Below are positions 701-64,000 of a stretch of 64,000 nt of DNA, piece by piece (position 1 is the stretch's first letter; every line of letters starts with the position of its first letter). A program made the position numbers and the translations under genes. The DNA is from Sacculina carcini (lineage: Eukaryota; Arthropoda; Thecostraca; Sacculinidae), in assembly GCA_916048095.2 (NCBI GenBank), contig CAJZIA020000002.1, positions 1 through 64,000 of the forward strand. The letters run 5' to 3'. A model generated the notes under the pieces. It searched no databases. It saw only the letters and a list, made by a program, of their open reading frames with translations, and was not told the origin of the DNA.

Positions 701-2310
701 AAGCATGGATGATGTGGTTTTATTGCGTACAGTTTAATTAATGCTACACTATACTGAATATAAAGGCTTTATTGTCCTCAATAACGTTCCGCACGACGGG
801 CGGGTAAAATGCTACTGGGAACAAGGTAAACTACTGAATTTAACTGTAATTTAATTGGTTTAATTTCAAGTTGCATAAGCATAAGTTGCATAAGGATATG
901 GGTTGCAATATCATGTAATGCTAACTTATGCTGTTTTAGCGGAAGCATTAACCTGGAATTATAGAGATGACAGAAAGTTTCATTGTTTTGACAGTGTTAC
1001 ACTTCTGAATTACTACACACGAAGGATTGGTGTGAATTTGAGCAGTGTTGAGGGAAAAAAATCGTCAATAATTAAAACAAGAATTTACACATTCATATTT
1101 TTATATTGGATAAGTTTTTTGATTTTTGATTCATTATATCTTATTAATAGTTCCGCACGACGGGCGGGTTTAAATACGAGGTTGTTCGAGGAAAAATATT
1201 TTGCCACATCTAACATAAACGCATTCATATTTAGACTTTTCTATTGGTTAAGACTTTTTATGGGTTTGCTTTTTAAATTTTTTAATTTGTATTAGTAATT
1301 TTATTAATTCAATATTTATTTTACTTTTTGTTATAATTGTTCCGCTATACGGGATGGTTTCAATGCTAGATGATGTTAATTTATAAATATACTTGGGAAA
1401 CATTATGATAAAAAATGTAGACAATTTTCATTTTTCGTGTCTGAATTTTTAATTATTCCGCACGACGGGCAGGTTTAAATATGAAGCGGGTTGAGGGATA
1501 ATATTCTGTCAAAATTCAAATAAAAACATCCATATTTGGACTTTACTATTAGTTAGCATATTTACAGCTTTAATTTGTTTGCTTTTTAATTTGTATTCAT
1601 TTTTTTATGGATTGAATATGAATAGATTTTATGAATTGTTCCGCACGACGAGCGACTTTAAATTTATATATATAAAATATATCATCTGTGTGTGTGTATG
1701 CTTGGATACGAGGTGATATAACTGAGCGGGCTCAATGATATAGATCAGGGGTTTTAAACGTAAACGAAACGATGGATCCTTTTTATGAAATAAAAATGTC
1801 CCGCGGGTAGCAACTATAGACAATAGAACGTTCAATTTCACCGTGTATAATGAATTCATATACAAAAACTAACGGAGTTGACTTCAAGATCCAGAACAAA
1901 TCGTGTTCGAGTTCTGAATTATCCCGCACGACGGGTGGGTTTAAATATGAGGCGGGATGAGGGGAAATTTTGTCAAAATTAAACTGAAAATCATTACATT
2001 TACACTTTTTAATTGATATCCTTTGTTTTATTAATTGTTTTGCACGACGAACGGGTTTAACTGCTAGATGAGAACTTGAATTAAATTATATATAATTAAA
2101 TGGCATTATACAATAGATGTGAATTAATCTGTCTTACAGTTTGGTTACTATATTATATTGGCGGGATTCGAGAACATTATTGGTGGGCCGCGCGTTTGAT
2201 ACTAAAAGGGGATGAGATGATATACGATAAGATGGGATGGTTGGGTTGGGTAGGATTGGGTCAGGTTATATTGGTTTTAATATGAATGCGGAATATAATG
2301 TATGTATATA
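700..2310 (+). repeat. Array of Helitron-like 3'-end motifs in AT-rich DNA
   Basis: The motif ttccgcacgacgggcgggttt recurs at about 788, 1151, 1454, 1641, 1921 and 2037, each time in AT-rich sequence. Some copies end in GCTAG shortly after the GC-rich block, as at 2037, and a degenerate version ends near 1365. A short hairpin (CCGC...GCGG) followed by CTAG is what Helitron 3' termini look like. Segment 1660-1930 carries a 5'-end-like stretch (tatatataaaa, then a tgtg-rich run). No transposase is encoded. The ORF at 903-1295 lies in this repeat DNA and is not believed. Confidence 0.6.
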
Positions 2311-2317
2311 AATGTAA
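2040..2317 (+). repeat. Dispersed repeat, target of the Penelope insertion
   Basis: This segment (attaaatggcattatacaat... ggtgggccgcgcg... gaatgcggaatataatg) is near-identical to 11936-12240 and related to 36920-37034. Its downstream half resumes at 11536, after the Penelope block, so the repeat was split by that insertion. Confidence 0.75.
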
Positions 2318-3906
2318 TTATAGAAGGAGACCATAAACTTGCATATATATACGGAAATGTCAAAACACACAAGCCAGATTATCCATTACGTCCTATCATT
2401 AGTCAAGTACCATCGTTGACGTATAAATTAGCGAAACAATTGAATGGCTTGATTTCCCCGCATATTCCATCAGCATTCAGTCTCAGATCATCAACAGAGC
2501 TAATAGACATTTTGAGAGCTGCAACACCATCTCGCCTTATGTGTTCTCTTGACGTGGAATCCTTATTCACGAATGTTCCGGTGGATGAGACGATTAATAT
2601 CATTTGTGATTATATATATCATAAACATGCTGCAGTACTGGACATTCCTGAGCATAATCTTCGTAGGTTATTAAGTGCGTGCACCAAAGAATCACCGTTC
2701 CTCTCACCTGACGGAGACATATACGTACAATGTGACGGAGTAGCTATGGGCTCACCCCTTGGAGTTACTTTTGCTAATTTCTACATGGGTCACCTAGAAG
2801 AAGAATGCTATAAAAACCATCCGGACATGAAACCATCTATATATGTACGGTATATAGATGACATTTTTGTAAACACAGAAAATAAAATGAACTTGCAAGC
2901 AATCAATGACTACTTTGAAAAAAACTCCGGTTTAAAATTTACCATCGAAAATGAAGCAAACAACCAACTCCCATTTCTGGACATACTGATTCAAAGAGAC
3001 GTAACATCATTCATAACATCGGTGCAAGTGAAATCCACAAATCTAGGTTTTTGCATGAATGCAAAGAGTGAATGCCCAGAGCAATACAAACGCAGTGTAA
3101 TTAGCTCGTACATCAAGAGGGCGCTAACTCACTGTTCAACATGGACTAATACAGACGCGGAAATCAATAGAGTCGGCAAATTATTGACTAATAACGGCTA
3201 CACACAAAAAGACATCGATGACGTAGTCAGACAAAAGCTACATGACTTCATGATTACGAATGAAAACAACCGAGACAGAGACCAAGATACACTCAAATTA
3301 TATTACAGAAACACTATGAGCTCAAATTACAAACAAGACGAGACTGCACTTCAGAAAATCATTAGGAAACACGTTACTCCATGTCAACCAGAAACAAAAA
3401 TTAAACTAGTCATTTACTACAAAACTCGAAAAACATACCAGTCGATTGTCAAGAATAGCTGCCTACCAAGGACCGAAGAGACGCAAAAAGTGAACGTCGT
3501 GTATTCACATAAATGCCAAACTGGAGACTGCAGTCTCCGTAATTCTGAATACATCGGCCACACAACAACAACTTTGCACAAGCGACTCACTGCTCACTTG
3601 CACGACGGCGCTATTTTTCGACACTACGCGCAAGAGCATAACATCAAGCTCAACAGAACAATCCTCACGGACAATACATCCGTCATTTGCCAGGAGCATA
3701 ACATCAGAAAGCTCAAAATGATAGAGGCAGTGTTGATTTGTACGCGGAAACCAACTATAAACGTCCAACAACAGCCTGACGTAATTGTTCCATCTATTAG
3801 ACAGCAAAACAACATCAACAACCAACAGAGAAGCGCATCACAACATCCTGCACCTAGCCAGAATTTATCTACATCAAACGGCAGTGCAAATGTGCACTCG
3901 ACATGA
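2318..3906 (+). pseudogene. Penelope-like element, upstream 5'-truncated copy (RT + GIY-YIG)
   Basis: An open frame of about 530 residues from the upstream partial copy of a Penelope-like retroelement. It begins within the RT fingers; the N-terminal region present in the next copy is missing, and homology between the two copies starts at ttatagaagg (2318 and 9648). The RT catalytic box YIDDIF is at about 2849-2870. The C-terminal part carries a GIY-YIG endonuclease core (SEYIGHTTTTLHKRLTAH, about 3540-3600), the nuclease typical of Penelope elements. The frame is open to the stop at 3904-3906. A truncated copy joined head-to-tail to a longer one is the usual Penelope 'pLTR' arrangement. The apparent start at 2302 is flanking DNA. 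Confidence 0.9.
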
Positions 3907-4203: not shown

Positions 4204-4289
4204 GATATACCCTTCGTCGAAAGGCTAACAGCAGAAATTCTCCGGATGAGAGAGGTTTATACCTCAAAGAAGAACTCAGCAGGAAACAA
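4062..4289 (+). pseudogene. Penelope-like element, inner copy, N-terminal coding part
   Basis: Starts ATG 4062 in the frame MSFSVLLGKLSENQK and runs open until it is broken after a CAA codon at 4287-4289 by LTR-1. The frame resumes at 8956, immediately after the second copy of the 5-bp target duplication, with no change of phase. This N-terminal segment is upstream of the RT and is missing from the truncated copy at 2318-3906. Confidence 0.85.
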
Positions 4290-4312
4290 TGTAGTGTTAT
4301 GTGCATGGAGTG

Positions 4313-4351
<39 letters not shown>

Positions 4352-4610
4352 TTCGCGTTTGTGCTCGTGTTGTGTACTATGTTTGTATGTATGTATGTAT
4401 GTACTAGTATGACTGACACGCCGTGAATTGTTCATGCCCCGCGGCGGCGGCGAGTGACCGGCTCGCTGCTGATTGGTTGCTGCGGCGGGTGAGGCTTTGT
4501 GTGTGTGCGTGTGTGTGTGTGTCACGGTGTGAGCGAGGAGTCGTGTTGGTGGTTTGACGGTTGGAGGAGAGACTGTGCTGTGCGAGTTGAGCGTCTGTGC
4601 GTTTATTACA
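4290..4610 (+). repeat. 5' LTR of LTR-1
   Basis: Begins tgtagtgttatg and ends gtttattaca. It contains (GT)n at 4317-4350, a GC-rich core and gctgattggttg, which includes an inverted CCAAT box. The core is shared with the LTRs of LTR-4. Confidence 0.9.
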
Positions 4611-4622
4611 AGCTATTTCGGC
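4611..4622 (+). promoter_or_regulatory. Primer-binding site of LTR-1, matching a tRNA 5' end
   Basis: AGCTATTTCGGC directly follows the 5' LTR. It is the reverse complement of GCCGAAATAGCT, nucleotides 1-12 of typical animal tRNA-Phe (recalled sequence). A normal site would begin TGG, pairing with the tRNA CCA end; this does not. The same 12-mer sits at the same position in LTR-2, LTR-4 and the minus-strand element at 22564-24066. Confidence 0.7.
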
Positions 4623-4625
4623 ATA

Positions 4626-5402
4626 ATGTCCAAGTCTGAGAGTGTTGCTCCTGGTGCGATGGCGTTTGACATCAAACTTATTCCGGAGTTCAGAGGCAAT
4701 GATGATTGCTCCGTGTCTGAATGGTTCAGCAAGTTGCATTGGATATGCAGATTGTACAACGTTTCGTTTGTTGCTGCCGTCATCCCACTTCGACTCACAG
4801 GAAATGCATACCGAGTGTATGACCAGCTTTCGGATCAAAGCAAACTTGATGTGGATCAAGTTCAGCGAGCGTTGGTGAAGGCGTTCGAGGTCGATTCTTT
4901 TTCTGCATATGATCAGCTGGTGACGCGTCGGCTACAGTCTAGAGAACCGGTTGACGCGTATCTTGCGGATATAAAACGACTCGCTCAGCTCGCTGGTGGA
5001 CTGCAGGAAGCAGCGATAAACAGCGCTTTCGTCCACGGTCTGCCCGACTACGTGCGTCGAACACTCCGTGCCAACGCTCGAATATCAGAAATGACCGTGT
5101 CTCAGCTGGTGGAGAGCGCTCGCGGAATATTGGCTGAGGAAGAGGCCGCCATTGCAGGTATGTCTTGTTCCACCTCAGTGACGAGTGACCGCCATTGTGG
5201 CAGTTGTTCCTGTGTCAATGCCACCAAAGAACAGTCATTCAAATGCGCACAAACGTGCAATCAGTTGAGTGAGAAAAGCCACAAGTCAAATACGCGTTAT
5301 AATAGCCGTCATAAGCCGAGAAATGTTTACTGCTTTAAATGTGGCGTTAAAGGACATTTTGCTGCACAATGTTCGGGAAACGGACAGCGAGAAGACGCGT
5401 GA
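4626..5402 (+). CDS. gag: LTR-1 gag polyprotein
   Basis: 258 residues from ATG 4626, the first ATG after the LTR and primer site. The start reads MSKSESVAPGAM. The N-terminal two thirds resembles retrotransposon capsid-type gag. A CCHC zinc knuckle (CFKCGVKGHFAAQC, about 5332-5372) lies at the C-terminus and would bind RNA in particle assembly. The stop TGA at 5400-5402 lies within the frameshift pseudoknot. The LTR-2 and LTR-5 gags share the 'IPEFDG/VPEYDG' start region and the overall plan. Pol is made by -1 shifting at 5375-5381. Confidence 0.9.
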   Translation: MSKSESVAPGAMAFDIKLIPEFRGNDDCSVSEWFSKLHWICRLYNVSFVAAVIPLRLTGNAYRVYDQLSDQSKLDVDQVQRALVKAFEVDSFSAYDQLVTRRLQSREPVDAYLADIKRLAQLAGGLQEAAINSAFVHGLPDYVRRTLRANARISEMTVSQLVESARGILAEEEAAIAGMSCSTSVTSDRHCGSCSCVNATKEQSFKCAQTCNQLSEKSHKSNTRYNSRHKPRNVYCFKCGVKGHFAAQCSGNGQREDA

Positions 5403-5433
5403 GCGTCGGCGTCTTCTCGTTTGCCAATGACGC
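5375..5433 (+). promoter_or_regulatory. -1 ribosomal frameshift signal of LTR-1
   Basis: Slippery heptamer GGGAAAC (5375-5381) lies in the X_XXY_YYZ phase of the gag frame. A 6-nt spacer (5382-5387) follows. Then comes a perfect 11-bp stem, CGAGAAGACGC (5388-5398) with GCGTCTTCTCG (5409-5419), around a 10-nt loop. Loop bases GCGTC (5403-5407) can pair with GACGC (5429-5433), giving an H-type pseudoknot. The pol frame is exactly -1 relative to gag. Confidence 0.88.
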
Positions 5434-8398
5434 GTTACCCACGACACTCATGCGAGTAAATGATTGTGAGAAATCTGTACTCGTCGACTCAGGCTGTTCC
5501 AAGTGCATAATTCATCAGTCGTGTTGTGGTTCATGGGAACCATATGTTTGCACTATTGTAACTGTAGACGGCACCAAGCATAGGAGTCTTGGCAGGACAA
5601 TGGTATGCTTACAAAGTGCTGCTCATTCACCAAAATTTGTTGAAGCCATGGTTGTCAGCTTCAAACCGTTGAATTTTGAATTTGTGTTGGGTATGAATGG
5701 CGTATCGTCCTACGGTGGTGTGTGCATCAGTGGCGAGGGTAATGTGAGACTTGGTGTGCATTGTGACGCTACAGCAGGAACTCAGTACACGGCTGGAGCG
5801 GCTGATGCTTCTGGTGGAATGCCGGGTAAACTGACCGACCTTGTCATTGAACGACAAGACTTTACAGCAAAGTTCAGTGCTGACAAGAAACAGTGGACAG
5901 CTGCGTGGAAATGGGCGGACGGACGGCCACCAGGTGCTCTGAAAAACAAAGTTCGTGAATACGCCATGAAGCCCAGTGTTCGAATGGAATACCGTAGAGA
6001 AGTATTGGACTGGATCAAGCGTGGCTGGCTGCAACGATATGATGAACGAGAGCACGGACCTGCGAAAGCGTTAATTCCCCTAATGGCTGTCGTTCAAAAT
6101 AATAAGCACAAAACCAGGCCAGTCCTTGACTTCAGAGAGCTCAATGACTTCATAAATCCATTCACTGCCAACAGTGACGTTTGTGCCGACAAAATTCGCC
6201 TGTGGAGACGTGTTGGAGGCAGTGCGGTGTTGATCGATTTGAGGAAGGCTTACTTGCAAATCGCCGTGAGCTCCGACTTGTGGCCTTTTCAAACCGTCAA
6301 TTTCGAGGGCCGCCGTTTTTGTCTCACTAGACTCGGATTCGGTCTCAATGTCGCCCCATTGGTGATGCAAGCCGTACTGGAGACTGTGTTGAAACAGGAC
6401 CCGACCGTGTTTCAGGGTACGTCTTCCTACATCGACGATGTGCTTGTGAACGCGAATGTCGTTGGTGTGGACAAGGTGGTTGCACACCTGGAAAAATACG
6501 GCCTCGTGTGCAAAGCTCCCGAGCGACTGCGAGACGGCGCTCGTGTCCTTGGTGTCAGAGTGGACAGCCATGGTCGTCATCTGCGTTGGCGCCGTGACAA
6601 CTGTGTTGGTGACATACCGGATGTTCTCACACGGCGGAACGTGTTTTCAGTTTGTGGCAAACTGACAGGGCACATGCCAGTGTGTGGCTGGCTGCGTGTG
6701 GCGGCAGCATACATCAAGCGTCGAGCAAATGCTGCAACTGCAAGCTGGGATGACAAGCTGCGTGATGGTGGAGAAGTCCGCAAAATGCTGGAGGAAATAT
6801 TGGCCCGTGTGAAAGATGCTGATCCTGCAACTGGACGCTGGGATGTGGTTGATGGAGACGCCACTGTTTGGACCGATGCTAGTTCATTGGCCATGGGTGC
6901 GGTATTGGAGATCGGCGGGTCAGTGATTGAAGACGGATGCTGGTTGCGCACTGAGGATGCGGCTCATATTAATATGGCGGAACTCGATGCTGCTGTCAAA
7001 GGTGTGAACCTGGCGCTTATTTGGAAGCTGAAAAAATTCCGTCTAGTTACTGATTCCCGCACAGTCTTCCACTGGATAAGCAACGCATTGAGTGGGCAAT
7101 CGAGGCTTCAAACAAAAGCCGCCAGTGAAATGCTTATTCGCAGGAGGTTGTCTGTTCTCACGTCTCTGGTGGCAGAGTACCAGTTGGACGTTAACGTCGC
7201 ATTCGTCAGCTCAAGTTGCAATCTGGCGGACCAGCTGACTCGTGTGCCCACCGCCTGGCTGAGAAAGCAACCTAATGCAGCCGTGTCAGTGGCAGCAGCA
7301 GCGACAGCACCGTGTACTTCACCGCATGATCCTCTCGCTGTCGTGCGAGCCGTGCATGAGGCCTCTGGTCACCCTGGTGTTAGGCGAACACTGTATTTCT
7401 CGAAGAAGAAAGACCCGTGTGTGAGCAGAAGGATGGCCCAAACGGTGGTGAGAAATTGTGATGCATGCCAGTCAGTTGATCCTGCTCCTGTGCGGTGGGC
7501 AGCAGGCAAGTTGCACGTAAAGCGCAACTGGCATCGTCTGGCCATCGACGTGACGCACGCAGGGCTTCACCATTACCTCACTGTGATCGACTGTGGCCCG
7601 TCGCGATTCTCACTGTGGCGTCACCTGAGACAGCAAGACAGTGTGAATGTCATCATGCAATTGGAGAACATTTTTTATGAGCGCGGTCCACCAGCGGAAG
7701 TTCTGGCCGATAACGCAACTGTGTTTCGCAGCGCTGCTTTCAGAAGCATGCTCGAAAAATGGGGTGTCAATTTGATTTTTCGGTGCGCATATGAGCCCAC
7801 TGGAAATGCCATCGCTGAGCGCAGCCATCGCACCATCAAAACAATCGCTGCTAGGTCGAACTGCTCTGTATCGGAAGCTGTACATTGGTACAACATGACT
7901 CCAAAGGACAGCCGCACAGACAGTTCCGCGCCTGCCATGAAGATATATAAATATCGCGTGCGGTCGCGGCCAATCCCGACGCCGCCACATTCTGGCAACG
8001 CTCAAGTTAACAACGCTTCTGTGCGCTGCAAGTTCAAACTTGGAGATGTTGTGTGGGTTCGGCAGCGAGGTGCAAGTTGTCACACCAGGTCACACATCGG
8101 CACTGTGACTGGTGTGACCTCTCAGCTCAGCGTCGAAGTCGACGGAGTGCCTCGTCACGTGAGAAGTCTGAGGCCGTGCAATCGACGCGTGGCTGTCAGT
8201 GTGCCGCCTGGTGTGCAGCAGCAGCAGCAGCAGGAAGAAGAACGTCGTCCGGCTCTCGTGACAGTTCCGCCTGCTGCAGTTCAGTCTGAAAGAGTTGTTG
8301 AACCGGTGCGGAATGAACAACCGAATGACTTGCCTAGTCGCTCTGATGTGCGTTTATTACGGGCCAATCCTGCGCCGCGTCAATTATTTCAATATTGA
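5381..8398 (+). CDS. pol: LTR-1 pol polyprotein (PR-RT-RNase H-INT)
   Basis: About 1000 residues, entered by -1 frameshift; the open frame runs 5369-8398. Aspartic protease: LVDSGCS near residue 38. Reverse transcriptase: RPVLDFREL near 250 and the catalytic SSYIDDVLV near 353. RNase H: WTDAS near 500, NMAELD near 537, VTDSR near 561. Integrase: HHCC zinc site (GHPGVRRT...CDAC, 664-700), then the catalytic triad AIDVT (727), LADNA (780) and AIAERSHR (818). The tail has the KLGDVVWVRQRG module and a glutamine run. All catalytic residues I can see are present and no stops occur, so it may be active. 'RRSERIR'-type tails of related copies are absent here. Confidence 0.92.
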   Translation, partial: RTARRRVSVGVFSFANDALPTTLMRVNDCEKSVLVDSGCSKCIIHQSCCGSWEPYVCTIVTVDGTKHRSLGRTMVCLQSAAHSPKFVEAMVVSFKPLNFEFVLGMNGVSSYGGVCISGEGNVRLGVHCDATAGTQYTAGAADASGGMPGKLTDLVIERQDFTAKFSADKKQWTAAWKWADGRPPGALKNKVREYAMKPSVRMEYRREVLDWIKRGWLQRYDEREHGPAKALIPLMAVVQNNKHKTRPVLDFRELNDFINPFTANSDVCADKIRLWRRVGGSAVLIDLRKAYLQIAVSSDLWPFQTVNFEGRRFCLTRLGFGLNVAPLVMQAVLETVLKQDPTVFQGTSSYIDDVLVNANVVGVDKVVAHLEKYGLVCKAPERLRDGARVLGVRVDSHGRHLRWRRDNCVGDIPDVLTRRNVFSVCGKLTGHMPVCGWLRVAAAYIKRRANAATASWDDKLRDGGEVRKMLEEILARVKDADPATGRWDVVDGDATVWTDASSLAMGAVLEIGGSVIEDGCWLRTEDAAHINMAELDAAVKGVNLALIWKLKKFRLVTDSRTVFHWISNALSGQSRLQTKAASEMLIRRRLSVLTSLVAEYQLDVNVAFVSSSCNLADQLTRVPTAWLRKQPNAAVSVAAAATAPCTSPHDPLAVVRAVHEASGHPGVRRTLYFSKKKDPCVSRRMAQTVVRNCDACQSVDPAPVRWAAGKLHVKRNWHRLAIDVTHAGLHHYLTVIDCGPSRFSLWRHLRQQDSVNVIMQLENIFYERGPPAEVLADNATVFRSAAFRSMLEKWGVNLIFRCAYEPTGNAIAERSHRTIKTIAARSNCSVSEAVHWYNMTPKDSRTDSSAPAMKIYKYRVRSRPIPTPPHSGNAQVNNASVRCKFKLGDVVWVRQRGASCHTRSHIGTVTGVTSQLSVEVDGVPRHVRSLRPCNRRVAVSVPPGVQQQQQQEEERRPALVTVPPAAVQSERVVEPVRNEQPNDLPSRSDVRLLRANPAPRQLFQY

Positions 8399-8603: not shown

Positions 8604-8626
8604 TGTAGTGTTATGTGCATGGAGTG

Positions 8627-8691
<65 letters not shown>

Positions 8692-8950
8692 TTCGCGTTT
8701 GTGCTCGTGTTGTGTACTATGTTTGTATGTATGTATGTATGTACTAGTATGACTGACACGCCGTGAATTGTTCATGCCCCGCGGCGGCGGCGAGTGACCG
8801 GCTCGCTGCTGATTGGTTGCTGCGGCGGGTGAGACTTTGTGTGTGTGCGTGTGTGTGTGTGTCACGGTGTGAGCGAGGAGTCGTGTTGGTGGTTTGACGG
8901 TTGGAGGAGAGACTGTGCTGTGCGAGTTGAGCGTCTGTGCGTTTATTACA
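8604..8950 (+). repeat. 3' LTR of LTR-1
   Basis: Matches 4290-4610 apart from a longer (GT)n run (about 8633-8690) and very few substitutions, for example gtgaggctt against gtgagactt. It is followed by the target duplication AACAA and then the resumed Penelope frame. Confidence 0.92.
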
Positions 8951-8955
8951 AACAA

Positions 8956-11233
8956 GAACAGCTTTTACAACATGAGTATGAACTCAAAAGACTACAAGAT
9001 GAGTGGACAAGGACTGCGCCTGATAATGAGACCAAAGTTCTCATCAACAGAGCCATTGAAAGGTTATCACAAGACCATCTTTTCGCGGAGAGAAAACGGA
9101 CGGGACATAAACTGTCAACACTATACGGTGGGTCAATTAAATTAGCAGATAAGGTTGATCAATACGTCAATTTGAGTACCAAAGTATTGACAGAAACACA
9201 GAAAGAGTTATTGAATCTTTGATTCAACTGCCACTACATGTACAAAGAGAAACAATTTAACAAACGCATTGAGCTTGAAATTCTGCTAGACGACATATAC
9301 CATCATGAAAAAAGTGGGAAATTAGAAACATCATCAACATTACAGGCTGAGATTATAAGAGAGGCCCAAATCCGAAGAGGTCACGCCAGAACATCAATCT
9401 TCACTGCGGATTTACAACAAGCAGCAAAGGAGTTGAGAGATGATTCAAGCATTGTAATTAGGAAAGCCGATAAATCTTCATCATATGTCATTTTAGGAAG
9501 CGAGCAATATCACAACAAGCTGCGCCAAATACTAAATGATAACAGCAAATTCAGGAAAATCGCGAGAAATCCAACTGCTTCTCTCAAAACTGAACTAAAC
9601 ATACTCATAAGAAAGTGCAATAGTAGAAGCACAACGAAACTTTCACTTATAGAAGGAGACCATAAACTTGCATATATATACGGAAATGTCAAAACACACA
9701 AGCCAGATTATCCATTACGTCCTATCATTAGTCAAGTACCATCGTTGACGTATAAATTAGCGAAACAGTTGAATGGCTTGATTTCCCCGCATATTCCATC
9801 AGCATTCAGTCTCAGATCATCAACAGAGCTAATAGACATTTTGAGAGCTGCAACACCATCTCGCCTTATGTGTTCTCTTGACGTGGAATCCTTATTCACG
9901 AATGTTCCGGTGGATGAGACGATTAATATCATTTGTGATTATATATCATAAACATGCTGCAGTACTGGACATTCCTGAGCATAATCTTCGTAGGTTATTA
10001 AGTGCGTGCACCAAAGAATCACCGTTCCTCTCACCTGACGGAGACATGTACGTACAATGTGACGGAGTAGCTATGGGCTCACCCCTTGGAGTTACTTTTG
10101 CTAATTTCTACATGGGTCACCTAGAAGAAGAATGCTTTAAAAACCATCCGGACATGAAACCATCTATATATGTACGGTATATAGATGACATTTTTGTAAA
10201 CACAGAAAATAAAATGAACTTGCAAGCAATCAAGGACTACTTTGAAAAAAACTCCGGTTTAAAATTTACCATCGAAAATGAAGCAAACAACCAACTCCCA
10301 TTTCTGGACATACTGATTCAAAGAGACGTAACATCATTCATAACATCGGTGCAAGTGAAATCCACAAATCTAGGTTTTTGCATGAATGCAAAGAATGAAT
10401 GCCCAGAGCAATACAAACGCAGTGTAATTAGCTCGTACATCAAGAGGGCGCTAACTCACTGTTCAAAATGGACTAATACAGACGCGGAAATCAATAGAGT
10501 CGGCAAATTATTGACTAATAACGGCTACACACAAAAAGACTTCGATGACGTAGTCAGACAAAAGCTACATGACTTCATGATTACGAATGAAAACAACCGA
10601 GACAGAGACCAAGATACACTCAAATTATATTACAGAAACACTATGAGCTCAAATTACAAACAAGACGAGACTGCACTTCAGAAAATCATTAGGAAACACG
10701 TTACTCCATGTCAACCAGAAAGAAAAATTAAACTAGTCATTTACTACAAAACTCGAAAAACATACCAGTCGATTGTCAAGAATAGCTGCCTACCAAGGAC
10801 CGAAGAGACGCAAAAAGTGAACGTCGTGTATTCACATAAATGCCAAACTGGAGACTGCAGTCTCCGTAATTCTGAATACATCGGCCACACAACAACAACT
10901 TTGCACAAGCGACTCACTGCTCACTTGCACGACGGCGCTATTTTTCGACACTACGCGCAAGAGCATAACATCAAGCTCAACAGAACAATCCTCACGGACA
11001 ATACATCCGTCATTTGCCAGGAGCATAACATCAGAAAGCTCAAAATGATAGAGGCAGTGTTGATTTGTACGCGGAAACCAACTATAAACGTCCAACAACA
11101 GCCTGACGTAATTCCTCCATCTATTAGACAGCAAAACAACATCAACAACCAACAGAGAAGCGCATCACAACATCCTGCACCTAGCCAGAATTTATCTACA
11201 TCAAACGGCAGTGCAAATGTGCACTCGGCATGA
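8956..11233 (+). pseudogene. Penelope-like element, inner copy, main coding part (RT + GIY-YIG)
   Basis: Continues the frame begun at 4062. It encodes the N-terminal helical region, RT (fingers from about 9648; catalytic YIDDIF at about 10177) and the C-terminal GIY-YIG nuclease (EYIGHTTTTLHKR, about 10875). Two lesions: an in-frame TGA at about 9220-9222, where GGA would read through, and a 2-bp loss in an ATATAT run at about 9940-9948 (the upstream copy has tatatatatc) that shifts the frame inside the RT. Otherwise it is about 98% identical by eye to 2318-3906. It ends at 11231-11233. Not functional as it stands, but recent. Confidence 0.9.
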
Positions 11234-23613: not shown

Positions 23614-23625
23614 GCCGAAATAGCT
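23614..23625 (-). promoter_or_regulatory. Primer-binding site of the nested minus-strand LTR element
   Basis: On the minus strand, ctttaca|AGCTATTTCGGC: the same tRNA-Phe 5'-end complement that follows the 5' LTR of LTR-1, LTR-2 and LTR-4. Confidence 0.7.
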
Positions 23626-26391: not shown

Positions 26392-28670
26392 ATCTATATA
26401 TATATAAAAGAGATCCTCTGTCTGTCTGTCTGTCTGTGTGTTTGTCTGTCCCACCCTCCTTGGTCACATTTTCAGCAAGCTGCTACTCGGTAACCACTTA
26501 ATGTACCCGCCAACAATTTATACCATTACGCTGGAAATTTTGTTGTCTACAGGATAGGATAAATTTCAAATTTTAAAAATGTAACCAAAAAAAGTTATCG
26601 CGGTGAAAAGACAAAATGAACCCTGAAAAATGCGAAAATTTTGGTCAATATTCCTACATCTACTCCTCATAAACCAGAAATGGTACAGCCAAACAGATTA
26701 TACCACTGTGTATAAAATATTCTGTTCTACTCGGTAGGCTATAATTCATATCCAAAAATTAAATATAAAATATGTAAAAATGACAAAATTTCAGTCTACA
26801 TTCAAAATTATATTTAAGCTCGACGCGTCCGATTTTCTGTACTTTTTTCTCTATTTCTCAGCAACTAACTATGACACATCTAAATAAATATTACCATCAT
26901 GCTGGGAATTTTGTTTTCTACAGCACGGTATAATTTTTAATTTTCCAAAGTGTATTAAAAAAAATGTTACGGCGGTGTGAAGTCAAAATGACAAAGTCAA
27001 AAAGGCATAATTAGCACTAAAAACGCGAATATTTTGGTCAATATTCCCCTATCTATTCCTCATAAACCAGCAGAGTTACAGCTATAAAAATTATACTATT
27101 GTGTAGAGAATTTTGTGTTCTACAAGAAATATTCTAATATATACCCACAAATGATACCAAAAACGTAAAATTGGCAAAATTCTCAAATACATCCAAAATT
27201 ACACTTGAACACCGGGCGACTAAAATTAATTAATTTTTCTACTATTTCTCAGTAACTATTTGTTACACATAAAAATAAATTATACCATTGCGCTGGAAAT
27301 CTTATTGTCTACAATACGGTATAATTTTTTATTTTCCAAAGGGTATCTGAAGGAAGTTACGGCGGTGTAAATTCAAAAGGACATATTGCCAATTTGACAG
27401 CTATTATGCGCACTTGCGATTACACAGGAATATACACTGATTTAATTTCACTGAAGTCCAATCACAATTTACGCACTTGCGATTACACAGGAATATACTA
27501 TTGTGTAGAGAATTTTGTGTTCTACAATATAAGCTATAATTTATACCCACAAATGGTACAAAAACGTGTAAAATTGGCAAAATTCTCAAATACATCCAAA
27601 ATTACATTTGAACACCGGGCGACTAAAATTAATTCATTTTTCTACTATTTCTCAGTAACTATTTGTTATACATGAAAATAAATTATACCATCGTGCTAGA
27701 AATCTTGTTTTCTACAATACGGTATAATTTGTAATTTTCCAAAGGGTATCTGAAGGAAGTTACGGCGGTGTAAATTCAAAAGGACATATTGCCAATTTGA
27801 CAGCTATTATGCGCACTTGCGATTACACAGGAATATACTACTGTGTAGATAATTTTGTGTTCTACAAGAAAAGGTATAATTTATACCCACAAATGATACA
27901 AAAAACGTGTAAAATTGGCAAAATTCTCAAATGCATCCAAAATTACACTTGTACACCGGGTGACTAAAATTTATTCATTTTTCTACCCATTTCTCAGGAA
28001 CTGTTTATCACACCTTAAAATTAATTATACCATCGTGCTAGAAATAATGTTTTCTACAATACGGTATAATTTTTAATTTTCCAAAGTGTATCTGAAGGAA
28101 GTTACGACGGTGTAAAGTCAAAATGTCATGTTGCCAATTTGACAGCTATTATGCGTACTTGCGATTACACAGGAATATACTACTGTGTATATAATTTTGT
28201 GTTCTACAATATAAGCTATAATTTATACCCACAAATGGTACAAAAAACGTGTAAAATTGGCAAAATTCTCAAATACATCCAAAATTACACTTGAACACCG
28301 GGCGACTAAAATTAATTCATTTTTCTACTATTTTCCAGTAACTATTTGTTACACATAAAAATAAATTATACCATCGTGCTAGAAATCTTGTTTTCTACAA
28401 TACGGTATAATTTGTAATTTTCCAAAGGGTGTCTGAAGGAAGTTACGGCGGTGTAAAGTCAAAAGGACATATTGCCAATTTGACAGCTATTATGCGCACT
28501 TGCGATTACACAGGAATATACACCGATTAAATTTCACTGAAGCCCAATTACAATTAAGAATGCATCATATTATCTCCAAGCATGGATGGTGTGGTTTTTT
28601 TGCGTACAGTTCAATTAATGCTACACTATACTGAATAGAAAGTCTTTATTGTCCTCAATATTTACACATC
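26392..28670 (+). repeat. Helitron-like 5' end followed by 341/403-bp tandem units
   Basis: Begins TCTATATATATATAAAAGAG then (TCTG)n, as many animal Helitron 5' ends do. From about 26820 it is a tandem array: the landmark acacttgaacaccgggcgac begins at 27201, 27604, 27946 and 28287, giving intervals of 403, 342 and 341 bp. The long unit carries an extra 61 bp. No coding potential. Confidence 0.75.
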
Positions 28671-29290
28671 AAATGTTCCGCACGACGGGCGGGTAAAATG
28701 CTACTTGGAACAAAGTAAGCTACTGAACTTTACTGTGTAATTTAATTGGTTTAATTTCAAGTTGCATACGCTTGAGTTGCATAAGGATACGGGTTGTAAT
28801 ATCATGCAATGCCAAGTATATGCATATGCTGTTTTAGAGGAAGCATTAATCTGGAATTATAGAGATGTTTCATTGTTTTGATAGTGTTACACGTCTGAAT
28901 TACTACACACGAAGGACGGGTGTGAATTTGAGTAGTGTTGAGGGAAAAACATCGTCAATAATTAAAACAAGAATTTACAAATTTGACCTTTCTATTGGTC
29001 GTTTTTCATCAATTTTATTTGTGTTTGTTTCGTGTTTGAGTTCTGAATTATTCCGCACGACGGGCAGCTTTAAATATGAGGCGGGTTGTGGAAAAACATG
29101 TTTTCTAAATTGAAACATAAATTTCACATTTAGACTTTTATATTAGCTATGACTTTCCTGTGGGTTTGTTTTTCTTTTTCAATTTGCACTAAATTTTTTA
29201 TGAATTGAATATTAATTATATTTTATGAACTGTTCCGCACGACGGGCGAATTAAATGTATCTATAAAGAGTGGGTTTAAATGATAGCGAG
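28670..29290 (+). repeat. Helitron-like motifs downstream of the tandem array
   Basis: Copies of ttccgcacgacgggcggg at about 28676, 29050 and 29231. This stretch plus the last tandem unit (28081-29290) is repeated almost exactly at 35441-36651. Confidence 0.8.
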
Positions 29291-29848
29291 GTAGTTCTGT
29301 ATTGGCGTGTGCGTGCATTTGTGTGTGAGTGTGAGCGTGTGCGTATGTATGTATGTATGTGTGTGTGTGCTTGTGTGTAGTTCTGTATTGGCGTGTGCGT
29401 GCATTTGTGTGAGAGTGTGAGCGTGTGCGTATGTATGTATGTATGTATGTGTGTGTGCTTGTGCGTATGTTCTAGTGTAGTGAGTGTCAAGGGCATAAGC
29501 GGAGCTAGTGTAGTGATGATTGAAAGCTGTAGTGTAAGCTGATGCGCGAGTGTGCGCATACAGTGGTGCGTTGTTGCGCTTATGAGCTTTACAGTTGGGA
29601 GTTCAGCTATGAAGTTGTTGGTAAGAAGGGCAGTGCCATACGAGGAGTGGTTGTGTGTGTTGTGAGCTGTGGTGGTACAGGAATTGTGTTAGTGCGCGGT
29701 TGAGTTGTTCTCGTGGCGTTCTGTGTATTCTTCTTGGTTGCGTTTTTGCTCGTCATTCTCATCTCTACGGCCTTGTTTCATCTTCATCTTTAATACATCG
29801 TGCAATCTTCCCTTTGTTATTGGGTGAAGACATGGAGCACAAGTTACA
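29291..29848 (+). repeat. 5' LTR of LTR-2
   Basis: Contains two copies of tagttctgtattggcgtgtg (29291, 29380) with tgta/tgtg runs, and near its end the gag start codon (29832). Confidence 0.9.
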
Positions 29849-30665
29849 AGCTATTTCGGCACCGCGTACGGAGGCAACGTTGGATTTCAGACTCGTACCG
29901 GAATACGATGGGACGACAGATCCGTCTGCATGGATTGGGAAGGTGAAAAAGATATGTCGTTTGCACGGAGTGGGTCAAGTGGCAGTGGTGGCCGGCATGC
30001 GCCTCGTGGGTGATGCTTATGAAGTGGTGGATGCCTTGTCTGACAGTGACCAGCTGGATATGTCTAAATTGGAAGAGGAGCTTCAAACCGCGTTCGGAAT
30101 GGATTCATTCACTGCTTACGACGAATTCACAAAACGGAAGTTAGTGGCTGGCGAAAGTGTCAACGTTTTATTGGCAAGTCTACGCAGGCTGGGCAAACGA
30201 TGCAACATCTCCGACGACGTTTCGTTAAAATGTGCGTTTGTGGCGGCCCTCCCTCAACACGTGAGGCAGACCATGCGAGCAAACGCCAGACTTGATGCTA
30301 TGGGCATGGAGGAAGTTGTGGACCGGGCGAGAGTAGTGCTGGCAGAGTCAAACGCTTCAGGATGTGGACCGGCAATTGACCAGCAGCCTGAAGGGGGCGC
30401 AGTCGCTACCGTGGTGGCACACGCCGCATCACCGCGACGCGTAGGAACGTCTCCAGCGAGGTGCTATGTGTGTCACAAGGTGGGTCATATAGCGCGTTAT
30501 TGTAGTCAGCGACAAATGGCGACAATTGAACGAGGCGTTGGCGATCCGAAAAGCCGTGCACGACTGACGTGTTATACCTGCGGCAACTACGGACATATTA
30601 GCCCTGTGTGTCCTTTAAATGCCAAAGGAGAGGAGGCCTCGACGCGAGCCTTTTCTCCGCAGTGA
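29832..30665 (+). CDS. gag: LTR-2 gag polyprotein
   Basis: 277 residues from ATG 29832, which lies inside the 5' LTR, 17 nt before its end. The primer site is therefore translated (codons 6-10). No other in-frame ATG occurs before the conserved VPEYDG region. Capsid-like N-terminal part, then two CCHC knuckles, CYVCHKVGHIARYC (about 30463) and CYTCGNYGHISPVC (about 30571). Frame intact. Pol is reached by -1 slippage at 30614-30620. Confidence 0.85.
   Translation: MEHKLQAISAPRTEATLDFRLVPEYDGTTDPSAWIGKVKKICRLHGVGQVAVVAGMRLVGDAYEVVDALSDSDQLDMSKLEEELQTAFGMDSFTAYDEFTKRKLVAGESVNVLLASLRRLGKRCNISDDVSLKCAFVAALPQHVRQTMRANARLDAMGMEEVVDRARVVLAESNASGCGPAIDQQPEGGAVATVVAHAASPRRVGTSPARCYVCHKVGHIARYCSQRQMATIERGVGDPKSRARLTCYTCGNYGHISPVCPLNAKGEEASTRAFSPQ
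29849..29860 (+). promoter_or_regulatory. Primer-binding site of LTR-2, tRNA-Phe 5'-end complement
   Basis: AGCTATTTCGGC directly after ...acaagttaca, identical to the site in LTR-1 although the gag sequences have diverged strongly. Confidence 0.7.
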
Positions 30666-34879: not shown

Positions 34880-35440
34880 TGTAGTTCTGTATTGGCGTGT
34901 GCGTGCATTTGTGTGTGAGTGTGAGCGTGTGCGTATGTATGTATGTATGTGTGTGTGTGTGCTTGTGTGTAGTTCTGTATTGGTGTGTGCGTGCATTTGT
35001 GTGAGAGTGTGAGCGTGTGCGTATGTATGTATGTATGTATGTGTGTGTGCTTGTGCGTATGTTCTAGTGTAGTGAGTGTCAAGGGCATAAGCGGAGCTAG
35101 TGTAGTGATGATTGAAAGCTGTAGTGTAAGCTGATGCGCGAGTGTGAGCATACAGTGGTGCGTTGTTGCGCTTATGAGCTTTACAGTTGGGAGTTCAGCT
35201 ATGAAGTTGTTGGTAAGAAGGGCAGTGCCATACGAGGAGTGGTTGTGTGTGTTGTGAGCTGTGGTGGTACAGGAATTGTGTTAGTGCGCGGTTGAGTTGT
35301 TCTCGTGGCGTTCTGTGTATTCTTCTTGGTTGCGTTTTTGCTCGTCATTCTCATCTCTACGGCCTTGTTTCATCTTCATCTTTAATACATCGTGCAATCT
35401 TCCGTTTGTTATTGGGTGAAGACATGGAGCACAAGTTACA
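34880..35440 (+). repeat. 3' LTR of LTR-2
   Basis: tgtagttctg... acaagttaca. It also carries the gag ATG in the downstream copy. Confidence 0.9.
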
Positions 35441-36651
35441 CCAAAGTGTATCTGAAGGAAGTTACGACGGTGTAAAGTCAAAATGTCATGTTGCCAATTT
35501 GACAGCTATTATGCGTACTTGCGATTACACAGGAATATACTACTGTGTAGATAATTTTTGTGTTCTACAATATAAGCTATAATTTATACCCACAAATGGT
35601 ACAAAAAACGTGTAAAATTGGCAAAATTCTCAAATACATCCAAAATTACACTTGAACACCGGGCGACTAAAATTAATTCATTTTTCTACTATTTTCCAGT
35701 AACTATTTGTTACACATAAAAATAAATTATACCATCGTGCTAGAAATCTTGTTTTCTACAATACGGTATAATTTGTAATTTTCCAAAGGGTGTCTGAAGG
35801 AAGTTACGGCGGTGTAAAGTCAAAAGGACATATTGCCAATTTGACAGCTATTATGCGCACTTGCGATTACACAGGAATATACACCGATTAAATTTCACTG
35901 AAGCCCAATTACAATTAAGAATGCATCATATTATCTCCAAGCATGGATGGTGTGGTTTTTTTGCGTACAGTTCAGTTAATGCTACACTATACTGAATAGA
36001 AAGTCTTTATTGTCCTCAATATTTACACATCAAATGTTCCGCAAGACGGGCGGGTAAAATGCTACTTGGAACAAAGTAAGCTACTGAACTTTACTGTGTA
36101 ATTTAATTGGTTTAATTTCAAGTTGCATACGCTTGAGTTGCATAAGGATACGGGTTGTAATATCATGCAATGCCAAGTATATGCATATGCTGTTTTAGAG
36201 GAAGCATTAATCTGGAATTATAGAGATGTTTCATTGTTTTGATAGTGTTACACGTCTGAATTACTACACACGAAGGACGGGTGTGAATTTGAGTAGTGTT
36301 GAGGGAAAAACATCGTCAATAATTAAAACAAGAATTTACAAATTTGACCTTTCTATTGGTCGTTTTTCATCAATTTTATTTGTGTTTGTTTCGTGTTTGA
36401 GTTCTGAATTATTCCGCACGACGGGCAGCTTTAAATATGAGGCGGGTTGTGGAAAAACATGTTTTCTAAATTGAAACATAAATTTCACATTTAGACTTTT
36501 ATATTAGCTATGACTTTCCTGTGGGTTTGTTTTTCTTTTTCAATTTGCACTAATTTTTTTATGAATTGAATATTAATTATATTTTATGAACTGTTCCGCA
36601 CGACGGGCGAATTAAATGTATCTATAAAGAGTGGGTTTAAATGATAGCGAG
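35441..36651 (+). repeat. 1.2-kb duplicate of 28081-29290 on the other side of LTR-2
   Basis: Begins mid-unit of the tandem repeat (ccaaagtgtatctgaagg) exactly at the LTR end and stays near-identical to 28081-29290, then continues past the point where LTR-2 starts in the first copy. Confidence 0.93.
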
Positions 36652-37034: not shown

Positions 37035-37302
37035 TGTAGTGTCTTGTATCATGTGCGGTTTACTGTATTGCGATTGTAAAGATGGCGCGACGTGTATCGC
37101 GATGTTGTGACGTGTATCGTACGATTGTGAAATGGACCAATCAGAGGAAGGCACGTATGACAGCAAGGTACAATCGGGGTCAGGCTATAGAGTCAAATCA
37201 GTCTAGGTGTAGGTCTCGTTGAGTTAACTTGTCTGTGTTTTAATATACTTGTGAGTCAAGCCACATCTCAGATTCGCTCGCCATCGCTCCGACACTACAA
37301 TT

Positions 37303-43886: not shown

Positions 43887-44150
43887 TGTGGTGTAATCGT
43901 GTGTAGTGAGAGAGAGAGTGTGTGTGTGAAAGATTGTGAGTGCGTGAACGTGTTAGTGTGTCTATGTGTGATCGTGTATAGTTGAATTGTATTTTGCGTG
44001 CGAGAGTGTGTGAGCGAGTGTGTCTAGTTGTTTCGGTGTGTGTGTGTGCAGTTGTTTCGGTGTGTGTGTATGCGTTTGTGAATTGTCCATGCCCCGCAGC
44101 GGCGAGTGAATGACCGGCTCGCCGCTGATTGGTTGTTGCGGCGGGTGAGG

Positions 44151-44183
<33 letters not shown>

Positions 44184-45461
44184 GTGTGTGCTCCCGTGTG
44201 ACACGGTGTGAGCGGAGAGTCTTGTTCGTGGTGCGATTGTGGTGTGACGTCTTGTAGGCGCGCGTGGGGCAGTGATGCCCCACGCGCGCCTGTCTGTAAT
44301 ATAATTTAGTCTCTTCAGTTTTGTTACAAGCTATTTCGGCTTTTTGTTTTGGAATTATTTTTGTCTGCGACCCGGCTTCAGCAGCGGAGATGGTGCCTTC
44401 CAGCATCAGTAGCGGCCTACCAGCGGAGAACAGCGGTGGAGGTGCTCGGTGGCGTGTCAGGTGGTGTGCAGGGGGACGGCAGTGCAGCATGATGCCGGCG
44501 GGAGGCAGCTGAGGAGCTGTGGCCGAGGGATGCTGGTCGTCTCGCCTGCACTGGTGTAAGGCACGTCGCCGGGCAACTACAGGATTGTCGGTGGAGGCGA
44601 CGATCGCTCGTGGAGGATGCTGGTGCTGGACGGCAGGTGACAGAGAGGGGCTGCTGAAGCCGGAGGAAAACATGACGAACGACGGCGACGGCGTGGCCTG
44701 TGTGAACGGTGACGTCCCGGCTGCTTGCGGCAGGGTGCTGAAGAGCACTGGAGTCGACGGGAGCATAGTGGGTGCTGGGGTCGAAGTGTTGTGCCCTGTC
44801 GCGGCAGCCGGTGATGAAGAGGACGACAGGCTGCGGCGAAGCACCGAAGAGCACGGGCGGAGGCGGGAGCGTGGTCGACGCTGGGGCCTGACGTGTGTGC
44901 TTCGCCGCAGCCAAGGTGTGTGCATCTGGTGGAGGCCGTCGTCTAATTAGATTTTGGTTATTGGTTCATTTGTCTTGGTTTGCTTGGTTCGCGGTTTTTT
45001 GTTGATTTATGTTTCTTTAAAAACAGGTGGAGGTGTGGTGTAATCGTGTGTAGTGAGAGAGAGAGTGTGTGTGTGAAAGATTGTGAGTGCGTGAACGTGT
45101 TAGTGTGTCTATGTGTGATCGTGTATAGTTGAATTGTATTTTGCGTGCGAGAGTGTGTGAGCGAGTGTGTCTAGTTGTTTCGGTGTGTGTGTGTGCAGTT
45201 GTTTCGGTGTGTGTGTATGCGTTTGTGAATTGTCCATGCCCCGCAGCGGCGAGTGAATGACCGGCTCGCCGCTGATTGGTTGTTGCGGCGGGTGAGGACT
45301 GTGTGTGTGTGTGTCCGTGTGTGCTCCCGTGTGACACGGTGTGAGCGGAGAGTCTTGTTCGTGGTGCGATTGTGGTGTGACGTCTTGTAGGCGCGCGTGG
45401 GGCAGTGATGCCCCACGCGCGCCTGTCTGTAATATAATTTAGTCTCTTCAGTTTTGTTACA
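43887..45461 (+). mobile_element. LTR-4, non-coding LTR element (LARD/TRIM type) nested in LINE-D
   Basis: LTRs 43887-44328 and 45034-45461 (tgtggtgtaatcg ... gttttgttaca), target duplication CTATC (43882-43886, 45462-45466). The LTRs differ mainly in GT-repeat length. Internal region 705 bp, GC-rich, no gag or pol domain on either strand. Primer site agctatttcggc. aggtggagg precedes the 3' LTR. The LTR core (catgccccgc.gcggcgagtga... gctgattggttg) is shared with LTR-1, suggesting it is copied with proteins of that family. Confidence 0.9.
44329..44340 (+). promoter_or_regulatory. Primer-binding site of LTR-4, tRNA-Phe 5'-end complement
   Basis: AGCTATTTCGGC exactly at the LTR end, in an element with no coding constraint. 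Confidence 0.72.
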
Positions 45462-45466
45462 CTATC

Positions 45467-61390: not shown

Positions 61391-61402
61391 AGCTAACCGG
61401 CC
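61391..61402 (+). promoter_or_regulatory. Primer-binding site of LTR-5, tRNA-Ile 5'-end complement
   Basis: AGCTAACCGGCC directly after ...aaataca is the reverse complement of GGCCGGTTAGCT, nucleotides 1-12 of animal tRNA-Ile(AAU) (recalled). Same length and position as the tRNA-Phe version in the other elements. Confidence 0.7.
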
Positions 61403-61411
61403 GTTCGAAAA

Positions 61412-61993
61412 ATGGAGTCTTCATGTGGTTTCGACGCTCGCGTGATACCAGAATTTGATGGTCAGAGTGACATTGTGGAATGGTGGACTCGCACGGAGAT
61501 GATGTGTCAGCTCAAAGGCGTCGATGTGATGAGCGTAGTGCCACTACGTCTCTCAAAAGGCGCGTTTGTTGTGTGTTCCCAACTGCCGGATGAAATTCGT
61601 CGTTGTGCGAAAGGGACTCGCAGCGCTTTGTTCTCGGCGTTTGGAGTGGACAGATTCCGTGCATTCGCCCTGTTCACCAGTCGTCTTCTGCAAGAAGGTG
61701 AGTCGCCTGACGTATATTTGGCAGACTTAAAAAAGCTTGCAGTTTCATTCGGTGGCGTATCCGATAATCTGCTGATATGTGCATTTGTAAATGGCCTACC
61801 CGAGCACGTGGCGACCAGTATTCGTGCAAGCACAGTGTCAGAGTCTCTGTCGCTGAGTGATATTACGAGCAGAACTCGCATGGTATTACAAACGACAAAA
61901 AGCCCGCCGAACTGTTTAGCCGCCAATGTCGGGTCGCTTTCACCCCGAAAATGCTATATTTGCATCGTGCATCGTGTAAATCATCGTAAATAA
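61412..61993 (+). pseudogene. gag: LTR-5 gag, truncated
   Basis: MESSCGFDARVIPEFDGQ... similar to LTR-1 and LTR-2 gag through the capsid-like region (DVYLADLKKLAVSFGGVSDN...FVNGLPEHV). At the first knuckle (KCYIC, about 61950) it runs into the inverted segment and a stop at 61991-61993. Confidence 0.85.
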
Positions 61994-62605: not shown

Positions 62606-64000
62606 TCTGCAGATATCAGTTGACAGTTCATTGTGGCCTTTCCAGACGGTGAAGTTCAATGGTGTGTTGCACTGCTTGACCAGGCTTGGACTCGGGTTGA
62701 GTGAGGCGCCCATGATCATGCATACGTTGGTCGACTCGGTGATGGCACAGAACGACCAGATAAGACGTGGGACATCGGCATATGTTGCAATGTTCTCATT
62801 GACGGAAACATTGTGTCACCCGAAGCGGTGAAGGAGCACTTTACTAAGTACGTCCTTGAATCGAAAGAGATTCAAAAGCTCTCTGACGGAACCCGAGTGC
62901 TCGGCTTACACGTGTTTTCTTCAGAGTCTGGCAAGCTGATGTGGAAAAGGGACAATGCCGTGGGTGAGTGTCCGGAACAGCTCACGAGACGAGTCGTGTT
63001 TTCACTATGCAGCACTGTAGTGTCGCATTATCCTGTCGGTGGCTGGCTGCGAGTTGCCGCTTCGTACATCAAGCGACTTGCATCCGAAGCGACAAACAGC
63101 TGGGACGAACCGATTTGTGACTCGGCACTCCAGAGTCATGTGAACGAAGTGATATCGAGACTAAAGCATAGCGATCCCGTGAGAGGCGTGTGGAAGATCG
63201 ATGGTGATTCGGCGAATGTATGGGTAGACGCCAGCAACATTGCCATTGGTGCGTTGGTTGAGGTAAATGGCGAGACAGTGGAGGATGCTTGCTGATTGAG
63301 AAGGGACAGCCACCACATAAACCTCAGTGAGCTAGAGGCCGTGATAAAGGGGCTTGGACTGGCGATCAAGCTCAATTTTCGAAAAATTCGGCTTTTCATA
63401 GATTCATCCACGGTGCATGTATGGCTCAGGGGACTCCTAACGGCAAAGGAGCGTGTCAGGACCACTGCCTGTAGTGAGTTTCTGATCAGGCGCCGACTGG
63501 AGATCATCGGTGGATTGTTGGACGAGTACGACCTGACGGCTGAAGTAATGAAGGTGGCGTCTGAGAGGAATAAAGCAGATTGCCTGACTCGTGTGCCTGG
63601 TCACTGGTTGAAACAGGACAAATCAGTGTGTGCCGCAGGTGCTGAACCGACTGACGTGCGTTCTCGCATCAGGCAGATTCACCACGACGCCGGACATCCG
63701 GGCATCCACCGAACGCGGTACTTTTGCCGGAGGAAAAAGCTTTACTTGAGCAAGCGGGAAGTCGCAGATGTTGTGAGGTCGTGTGACATCTGCAATTCGA
63801 TTTGCCCGGCGTCAGTGAAATGGAGACACGGGAAACTGAGCGTGAATCAAAACTGGCACCGACTGGCAGCAGATTTTGTGCATGTGCGTAATTTATTGTA
63901 TGTGTCTGTCATCGATTGTGGTCCTTCGACGTTTTCTCTCTGGCGCAAGGTTCGCACTCGCAGCAGCGATGAAGTGGCGGACACTTTCGATGATATTTTT
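62606..64000 (+). pseudogene. pol: LTR-5 pol remnant (RT second half, RNase H, integrase start)
   Basis: Starts at LQISVDSSLWPFQTVKF; the RT fingers are deleted. A frameshift falls at the catalytic box (SAYV... about 62780, where relatives have YIDD). RNase H: VWVDASNIAIGALVEV (about 63220). An in-frame TGA at 63293-63295 replaces a Trp codon. Integrase HHCC: GHPGIHRT...CDIC (about 63690-63795) and the first catalytic Asp context AADFVHV (about 63870). Frame open to the window edge. Confidence 0.87.

Follow-up and report, generated by a model that had tools for sequence, protein, structure and literature searches.

A conserved 12-mer at the LTR edge of Sacculina carcini retrotransposons hints at a new way to start reverse transcription

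The choice and preparation of the primer are a defining step in the life cycle of an LTR element. A stretch of 64,000 nucleotides from Sacculina carcini (the window) raises the question of what primes a group of LTR retrotransposons in which no TGG, the mark of priming by a tRNA 3' end, stands at the LTR edge. Exact copies of the 12-mer AGCTATTTCGGC were found by a scan of the window at the primer sites of element 1 (4611-4622, + strand), a minus-strand element (23614-23625, - strand), element 2 (29849-29860, + strand) and element 4 (44329-44340, + strand). When up to one mismatch was allowed, the window contained no copy beyond these four, with 0.15 expected in shuffled sequence. Reading of the DNA at all four sites showed that the 12-mer abuts the LTR end ..TTACA with no spacer, and the sites begin with AGCT right after CA. 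A sequence-only reading of the window had reported an identical 12-mer at the 5' LTR end of these four elements, and the exact matches directly after ..CA confirmed this. It had also named a further element, element 3, as a contrast of the standard type. This was borne out by the DNA: the 5' LTR of element 3 (37035-37299, + strand; target duplication CGCGT) is followed by ATT and TGGCGACGAGG, and the sequence after the LTR, ATTTGGCG, is a TGG-type site.

For elements 1, 2, and 4 the presence of a second LTR established where the LTR ends, whereas in the minus-strand element the tail of the LTR was looked for on the 3' side and not found. The 5' LTR of element 1 (TGTAGTG...TTACA; 4290-4610, + strand) and its 3' LTR (8604-8950), with edges read in the DNA, lie between copies of the 5-bp target duplication AACAA (4285-4289 and 8951-8955). 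The LTR pair is 99.7% identical over 295 aligned bases, the (GT)n part being of unequal length, and this identity together with the duplication indicates a recent insertion. The gag ORF of element 1 (4626-5402, + strand) matches Retrotrans_gag with 24.0 bits (cut-off 24.1) and contains a zinc knuckle above cut-off. The pol ORF (5351-8398, + strand) contains DUF7047 and an integrase core above the curated cut-offs, as well as RT (E 9e-6), RNase H (3e-4), and H2C2 zinc finger (2.5e-4) matches below the Pfam cut-offs. The pol protein is 46-61% identical to 17 aligned relatives, and among the best 120 of 589 matches the named ones come from Trichuris, Trichinella, and crustaceans. Two near-identical RT ORFs flank element 1 (2299-3906, in which a Pfam RT domain was found, and 9845-11233); both are presumably Penelope-like.

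Element 2 has a 5' LTR at 29291-29848 (+ strand) and a 3' LTR at about 34880-35440, and a simple target duplication is absent. Its gag ORF (29832-30665, + strand) starts within the LTR and crosses the primer site, which is in frame and reads QAISA within gag; protease, RNase H-like, and integrase domains are above the Pfam cut-offs. The flank before this element (28081-29248) recurs after the 3' LTR at 35441-36609, near-identical where sampled and with a spacing of about 7361 bases. Since its flank is repeated on the far side, element 2 seems to lie inside a large tandem duplication. Element 4 is a short element without gag or pol, with LTRs at 43887-44328 (+ strand) and 45034-45461 and the 5-bp duplication CTATC. 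A long G+C hairpin is located about 35-80 nt upstream of its LTR end, and a similar one is present in the minus-strand element. The leader that follows the site is common to element 4 (43887-45466) and nine other loci (L005, L006, L013, L014, L021, L022, L025, L026, and L028); these form one downstream cluster, and their leader contains GCGACCCGGCTTCAGCAG or a near variant of it.

The target duplications of elements 1 and 4 and the gag, RT, RNase H, and integrase of element 1 (several of them below the Pfam cut-offs) identify these elements as LTR retrotransposons. Judged by gag type (a borderline Retrotrans_gag match) and gene order, they are probably Ty3-like; BEL/Pao elements have the same gene order as Ty3/gypsy elements. 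The sequence-only reading had described four elements with different LTRs and with strongly diverged or absent genes, and both parts of this description had to be amended. The LTRs form two clusters rather than four, because those of element 1, element 4, and the minus-strand element fall into one loose cluster. The absence of genes applies to element 4, but element 1, with its long gag and pol ORFs and almost identical LTRs, is not strongly diverged.

The frequency of the 12-mer was determined in the whole assembly (264,436,087 bases in 43 contigs). AGCTATTTCGGC occurs 2021 times (1005 forward and 1016 reverse) and the reversed control 5 times (2 and 3). The dinucleotide ..CA precedes 29 of the first 30 sites, all of which are on contig 1. 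In 76 of the 2021 copies HH comes next after the complementary 12-mer and is incompatible with the TG that a ..CA end would give there, so that at most 1945 copies have a ..CA edge. A set of 34 loci was compiled, 30 from contig 1, chosen by the exact 12-mer, and four from the window. These loci form 15 clusters by downstream sequence and 12 by LTR similarity, the latter obtained by single linkage on GT-rich LTRs, which may merge families. In 12 representatives, one per LTR cluster, the ACA before the site carries 1.6-2.0 bits and the bases at -8 to -4 are weakly conserved (0.4-1.1 bits), whereas the base just past the site carries 0.96 bit and those further on at most 0.5. The 12 columns of the site itself are constant by construction, since 30 of the 34 loci were selected via the exact match. 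Sites that follow CA and were not chosen by the 12-mer were therefore counted across 107 sequences totalling 363 kb, which comprise the window and loci fetched from the assembly: four are exact (all in the window), one has one mismatch, none has two, and 17 have three. For the reversed 12-mer after CA in the same sequences, the corresponding counts are 0, 0, 3, and 15. This indicated that copies are exact or nearly so, without a spread over intermediate matches. The site with one mismatch (L079, position 1771, + strand) has a leader resembling that of the L009 family. On contig C24 (1090956-1103369) the 12-mer recurs five times at an exact spacing of 3100 bases, L226 being the first unit; as the single unit that was read is an LTR/gag piece, the repeat seems to be an element fragment turned into a tandem array. 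A 14-mer scan of viral contigs matched at least 120 stretches, and no related loci were found in viral or prokaryote contigs.

A constant site that lies close to gag may be conserved for its peptide rather than for its DNA. In some families gag starts within the LTR and continues through the site. The site translates as QAISA, SYFG, or KLFR, or sits in a gene-free leader, and because it falls in different reading frames it is the DNA rather than the peptide that matters; this frame independence opposes peptide conservation as the cause of the constant site. The residues AISA are invariant in the seven rows of a gag alignment (A2), but six rows come from loci or window elements having the exact 12-mer, and the seventh, P0121, from a search favouring shared 5-letter words such as QAISA. 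The alignment thus shows an open frame through the site, not independent conservation. When the exact host peptides were written as a regular expression, two of 53 gag-like proteins matched, P0121 and P0161; each has QAISA and is open to the word bias just described. Inspection by eye added seven of the 53, in which a site-like peptide stands shortly upstream of gag: KLSRP in P0131, P0134, and P0145, KLSRL in P0136, SYPG in P0159, QAIPA in P0166, and QANKP in P0163. KLSRP is compatible with AGCTATCTCGGC, a one-base variant of the site, and the four KLSR proteins are mutually related. A loose test for site peptides gives background matches at 0.46% of nucleotide positions, or about 0.4 per 30-residue leader, and is for this reason not significant alone; three of 11 leaders (P0126, P0135, and P0137) had no site-like peptide in this test, and P0145 was missed through the anchor.

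The sequence-only reading had interpreted the 12-mer as the reverse complement of nt 1-12 of tRNA-Phe. The site agrees with human tRNA-Phe. A northern probe for Drosophila tRNA-Phe ends ..TGAGCTATTTCGGC-3' (also given as ..CAACTGAGCTATTTCGGC-3'; PMC6542536), and because this end agrees as well, the 12-mer is complementary to the first 12 nt of tRNA-Phe, its final C standing opposite nt 1. Under half-tRNA priming the site would be complementary to the anticodon-stem region, whereas it corresponds to nt 1-12. As the last C lies at nt 1 and the terminal A of the LTR cannot pair with C13, the edges of the constant block are the edges of the tRNA match. The proposed identity is thus backed by the Drosophila probe, whereas a gene starting with GCCGAAATAGCT was not found in the assembly.

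In this 264-Mb assembly many other tRNAs were recognised and a tRNA-Phe gene was not: neither pattern searches nor BLAST found one of canonical form. All 15 sites of GCCGAAATAGCTC in the assembly were read, and none of them lies in a tRNA according to ARAGORN. Patterns of the D arm and anticodon of tRNA-Phe yielded nothing in the assembly (three matches of one pattern were not tRNAs), and two patterns of anticodon and T arm gave 13 and 7 matches, again without a tRNA. A D-arm/anticodon pattern did find six genes read as tRNA-Tyr with an intron, which indicates that the method can find tRNAs; ARAGORN classified four of the six as tRNA of unknown type and missed two. The Rfam tRNA search scored 63 of 15013 candidates, and its isotype list is not a census. 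Runs of N were present in 5 of the first 98 loci, so assembly gaps could hide tRNA-Phe genes, and a host tRNA-Phe of odd form is possible.

The failure to find the gene while many other tRNAs were found may also mean that the primer is another host RNA, one that ends in GCCGAAAUAGCU or is cut after it. The reading of the 15 GCCGAAATAGCTC sites, none of which is a tRNA, counts against such an RNA. Of the 76 copies with HH, which are the sites of GCCGAAATAGCTHH, only a few overlap these 15, and the one unit of the 3.1-kb array that was read in addition is an LTR/gag piece. Since a further element of the window also appears to fit a tRNA, we consider another host RNA unlikely, and tRNA-Phe remains our preferred candidate.

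This further element, element 5, was missed in the sequence-only reading, whose list of elements was incomplete. Its site, AGCTAACCGGCC (61391-61402, + strand), comes directly after what appears to be the LTR end, ..CATTCAAATACA; the edge is placed by ..ATACA, as the 3' LTR lies outside the window. A gag ORF (61412-61993, + strand), recognised by its likeness to other gags and without a Pfam match, and a pol fragment with DUF7047 (62705-63295) follow. In a second copy of the family (L024), AGCTAACCGGCC again stands after ..ATACA and the bases past the site are different. AGCTAACCGGCC is complementary to GGCCGGTTAGCT, which we take to be the first 12 nt of human tRNA-Ile(AAT), and element 5 would accordingly fit a different tRNA in the same geometry. 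Both site types have AGCTA directly after CA. For the other seven bases, a chance fit to any one of approximately 20 tRNAs with TAGCT at nt 8-12 may be put at about 20/16384, roughly 1 in 800. The 12-mers of 13 other host tRNAs occur in the 363 kb of fetched sequence within tRNA genes only and none as a site, so that use of the 5' end has so far been seen for two tRNAs only.

The shared AGCTA is also what would be expected if the 12-mer were a conserved packaging, integration, or translation signal and not a primer site, as an integrase end could need the first bases. However, the 12-mer occupies the exact place of a primer binding site (PBS), its independence of frame argues against a peptide, and the seven distal bases differ between elements 1, 2, and 4 on the one hand and element 5 on the other, yet both versions appear to fit acceptor strands. 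A signal of this kind is in our view decidedly improbable. The interpretation given in the sequence-only reading, a primer site that matches a tRNA 5' end rather than a 3' end, is partly supported: the 2021 copies, the many unrelated LTRs, the element fitting a second tRNA, and the Drosophila probe speak for the geometry, and the identity of the primer is what we infer from it.

We judge it probable, if only just, that a host tRNA provides the minus-strand primer of these retrotransposons in the form of its 5'-terminal 10-12 nt; the primer, its cut, the enzyme, and the recopying are all inferred from the placement of the site. The first 12 nt of the tRNA would pair with the PBS abutting the LTR. 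Because the LTR ends in A, opposite C at nt 13 of the tRNA, pairing stops there and the 3'-OH must arise at or near nt 12. Alternatively, the 3'-OH could be formed at nt 10, in which case integrase would remove the final two bases, AG. The predicted joined primer RNA is GCCGAAAUAG(CU), and its tRNA-Ile counterpart would start with GGCCGGTTAGCTC; most copies would use tRNA-Phe and one family tRNA-Ile. Most likely, the RNase H encoded by the element would nick the tRNA where the duplex ends. This would resemble Tf1, in which RNase H reportedly makes the primer cut (Levin 1996, cited in PMC4600332); the Tf1 self-primer pairs over 11 nt. A ready-made 5' tRNA fragment might otherwise be trimmed back to the duplex; tRNA-Phe 5' fragments of about 35 nt were described in flies in a study of tRNA-methylation mutants (PMC7038984). 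With either source of the short tRNA primer, plus-strand DNA would copy it to its first nucleotide and thereby renew the PBS. Conservation stops at G1 of the tRNA, since plus-strand copying would end at this nucleotide. It is about evenly balanced, with a slight lean towards doubt, whether a large clade of animal LTR elements uses as primer the initial 10-12 nt of host tRNAs (those for Phe and Ile, perhaps also others), released by its own RNase H, with a PBS that tracks tRNA 5' ends when the host or the tRNA changes.

A whole tRNA might instead be held by its 5' end and prime elsewhere via its CCA end. TGG occurs within 18 nt past the site in 19 of the 34 loci, often as the ATGG of a start, and Ty3 makes more than one contact with its tRNA. 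The distance and context of this TGG vary among the loci, however, and synthesis of the minus strand should begin at the LTR edge; a tRNA bound in this way would have its 3' end facing in the opposite direction there. A second contact with nt 13-76 of tRNA-Phe was looked for in 30 tests and nothing beyond chance was found, the best complement being 8 nt long, a length reached in 2% of shuffles. Priming via the CCA end is thus quite improbable, and the short 5'-terminal primer is preferred.

The sequence-only reading had further offered self-priming as an alternative. In such a mechanism, Tf1-like or by a hairpin, the PBS would anneal to RNA of the element itself. In Tf1 and Tj1, too, an LTR-adjacent PBS has an RNA 5' end as its partner, in their case that of their own mRNA (PMC4600332). 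A local inverted repeat is present at the site in L002, and when G-U pairs are admitted, stretches with 1-3 mispairs occur in 34 of 34 loci, a count without a shuffled control. The best upstream Watson-Crick match to GCCGAAATAGCT within 600 nt, however, has 3-6 mismatches in 33 of the 34 loci, with shuffled means of 3.9-4.5, and the match with two mismatches in the exceptional locus, L013, lies 533 nt upstream. A 12-mer common to unrelated LTRs would also demand the same transcript start everywhere, and the predicted folds of 15 loci have no common structure at the site that would point to a hairpin. Self-priming in either form is very unlikely indeed. Its Tf1-type version found no support and was rejected, as none of the 34 loci has an LTR-encoded Watson-Crick complement in the 600 nt upstream.

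A plant survey that covered 5410 Ty1/copia and 8453 Ty3/gypsy elements names three types of primer: a complete tRNA, a half tRNA cut in the anticodon stem, and the element itself (PMC6317226). In the available portions of the open-licence literature, no description of a PBS pairing with tRNA nt 1-12 was found. If the proposed mechanism is true, it would add a fourth class of primer to full tRNA, half tRNA, and self-primer. It would imply that RT/RNase H or a host nuclease is able to generate, within the D stem, an end from which priming can start, and that primer-site finders keyed to tRNA 3' ends overlook such elements.

The elements described here share with standard tRNA-primed LTR elements, which element 3 resembles, a tRNA-complementary PBS beside the 5' LTR; the standard PBS, unlike theirs, starts with TGG and pairs with the CCA end. 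Copia is primed by a half tRNA, and in the elements of this type (copia, Osser, and Bianca, and also FunCo1) the primer is likewise a piece of a tRNA whose 3' end is internal. The half-tRNA systems of the plant survey are cut in the anticodon stem (PMC6317226), whereas here the 3' end would lie near nt 12 and the PBS includes nt 1. FunCo1 matches an internal region of tRNA-Lys (PMC5445492) and not nt 1-12. The fungal GalEa elements have no PBS but a hairpin site; they resemble the present elements in the absence of a tRNA 3'-end PBS and in carrying a short motif that is constant where the LTR ends (PMC5445492), and differ in that this motif is palindromic with a downstream partner and is not nt 1-12 of a tRNA. 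In two bivalve TRIMs the similarity after the repeat is to the central part of tRNA-Tyr, not to nt 1-12 (PMC6934838), and a Culex element is described with two tRNAs inserted at the PBS (PMC3286476). There is also a likeness in geometry to the self-primed Ty3-type elements Tf1, Tj1, and sushi, in which a PBS at the LTR edge pairs with an RNA 5' end that needs a cut to provide a 3'-OH (PMC4600332). Here, in contrast, this 5' end would belong to a tRNA, acting in trans, and in the 34 loci the element's own LTR is without a Watson-Crick complement. If true, priming from a tRNA 5' end would thus link tRNA-primed elements with the Tf1-like elements that use a cut primer.
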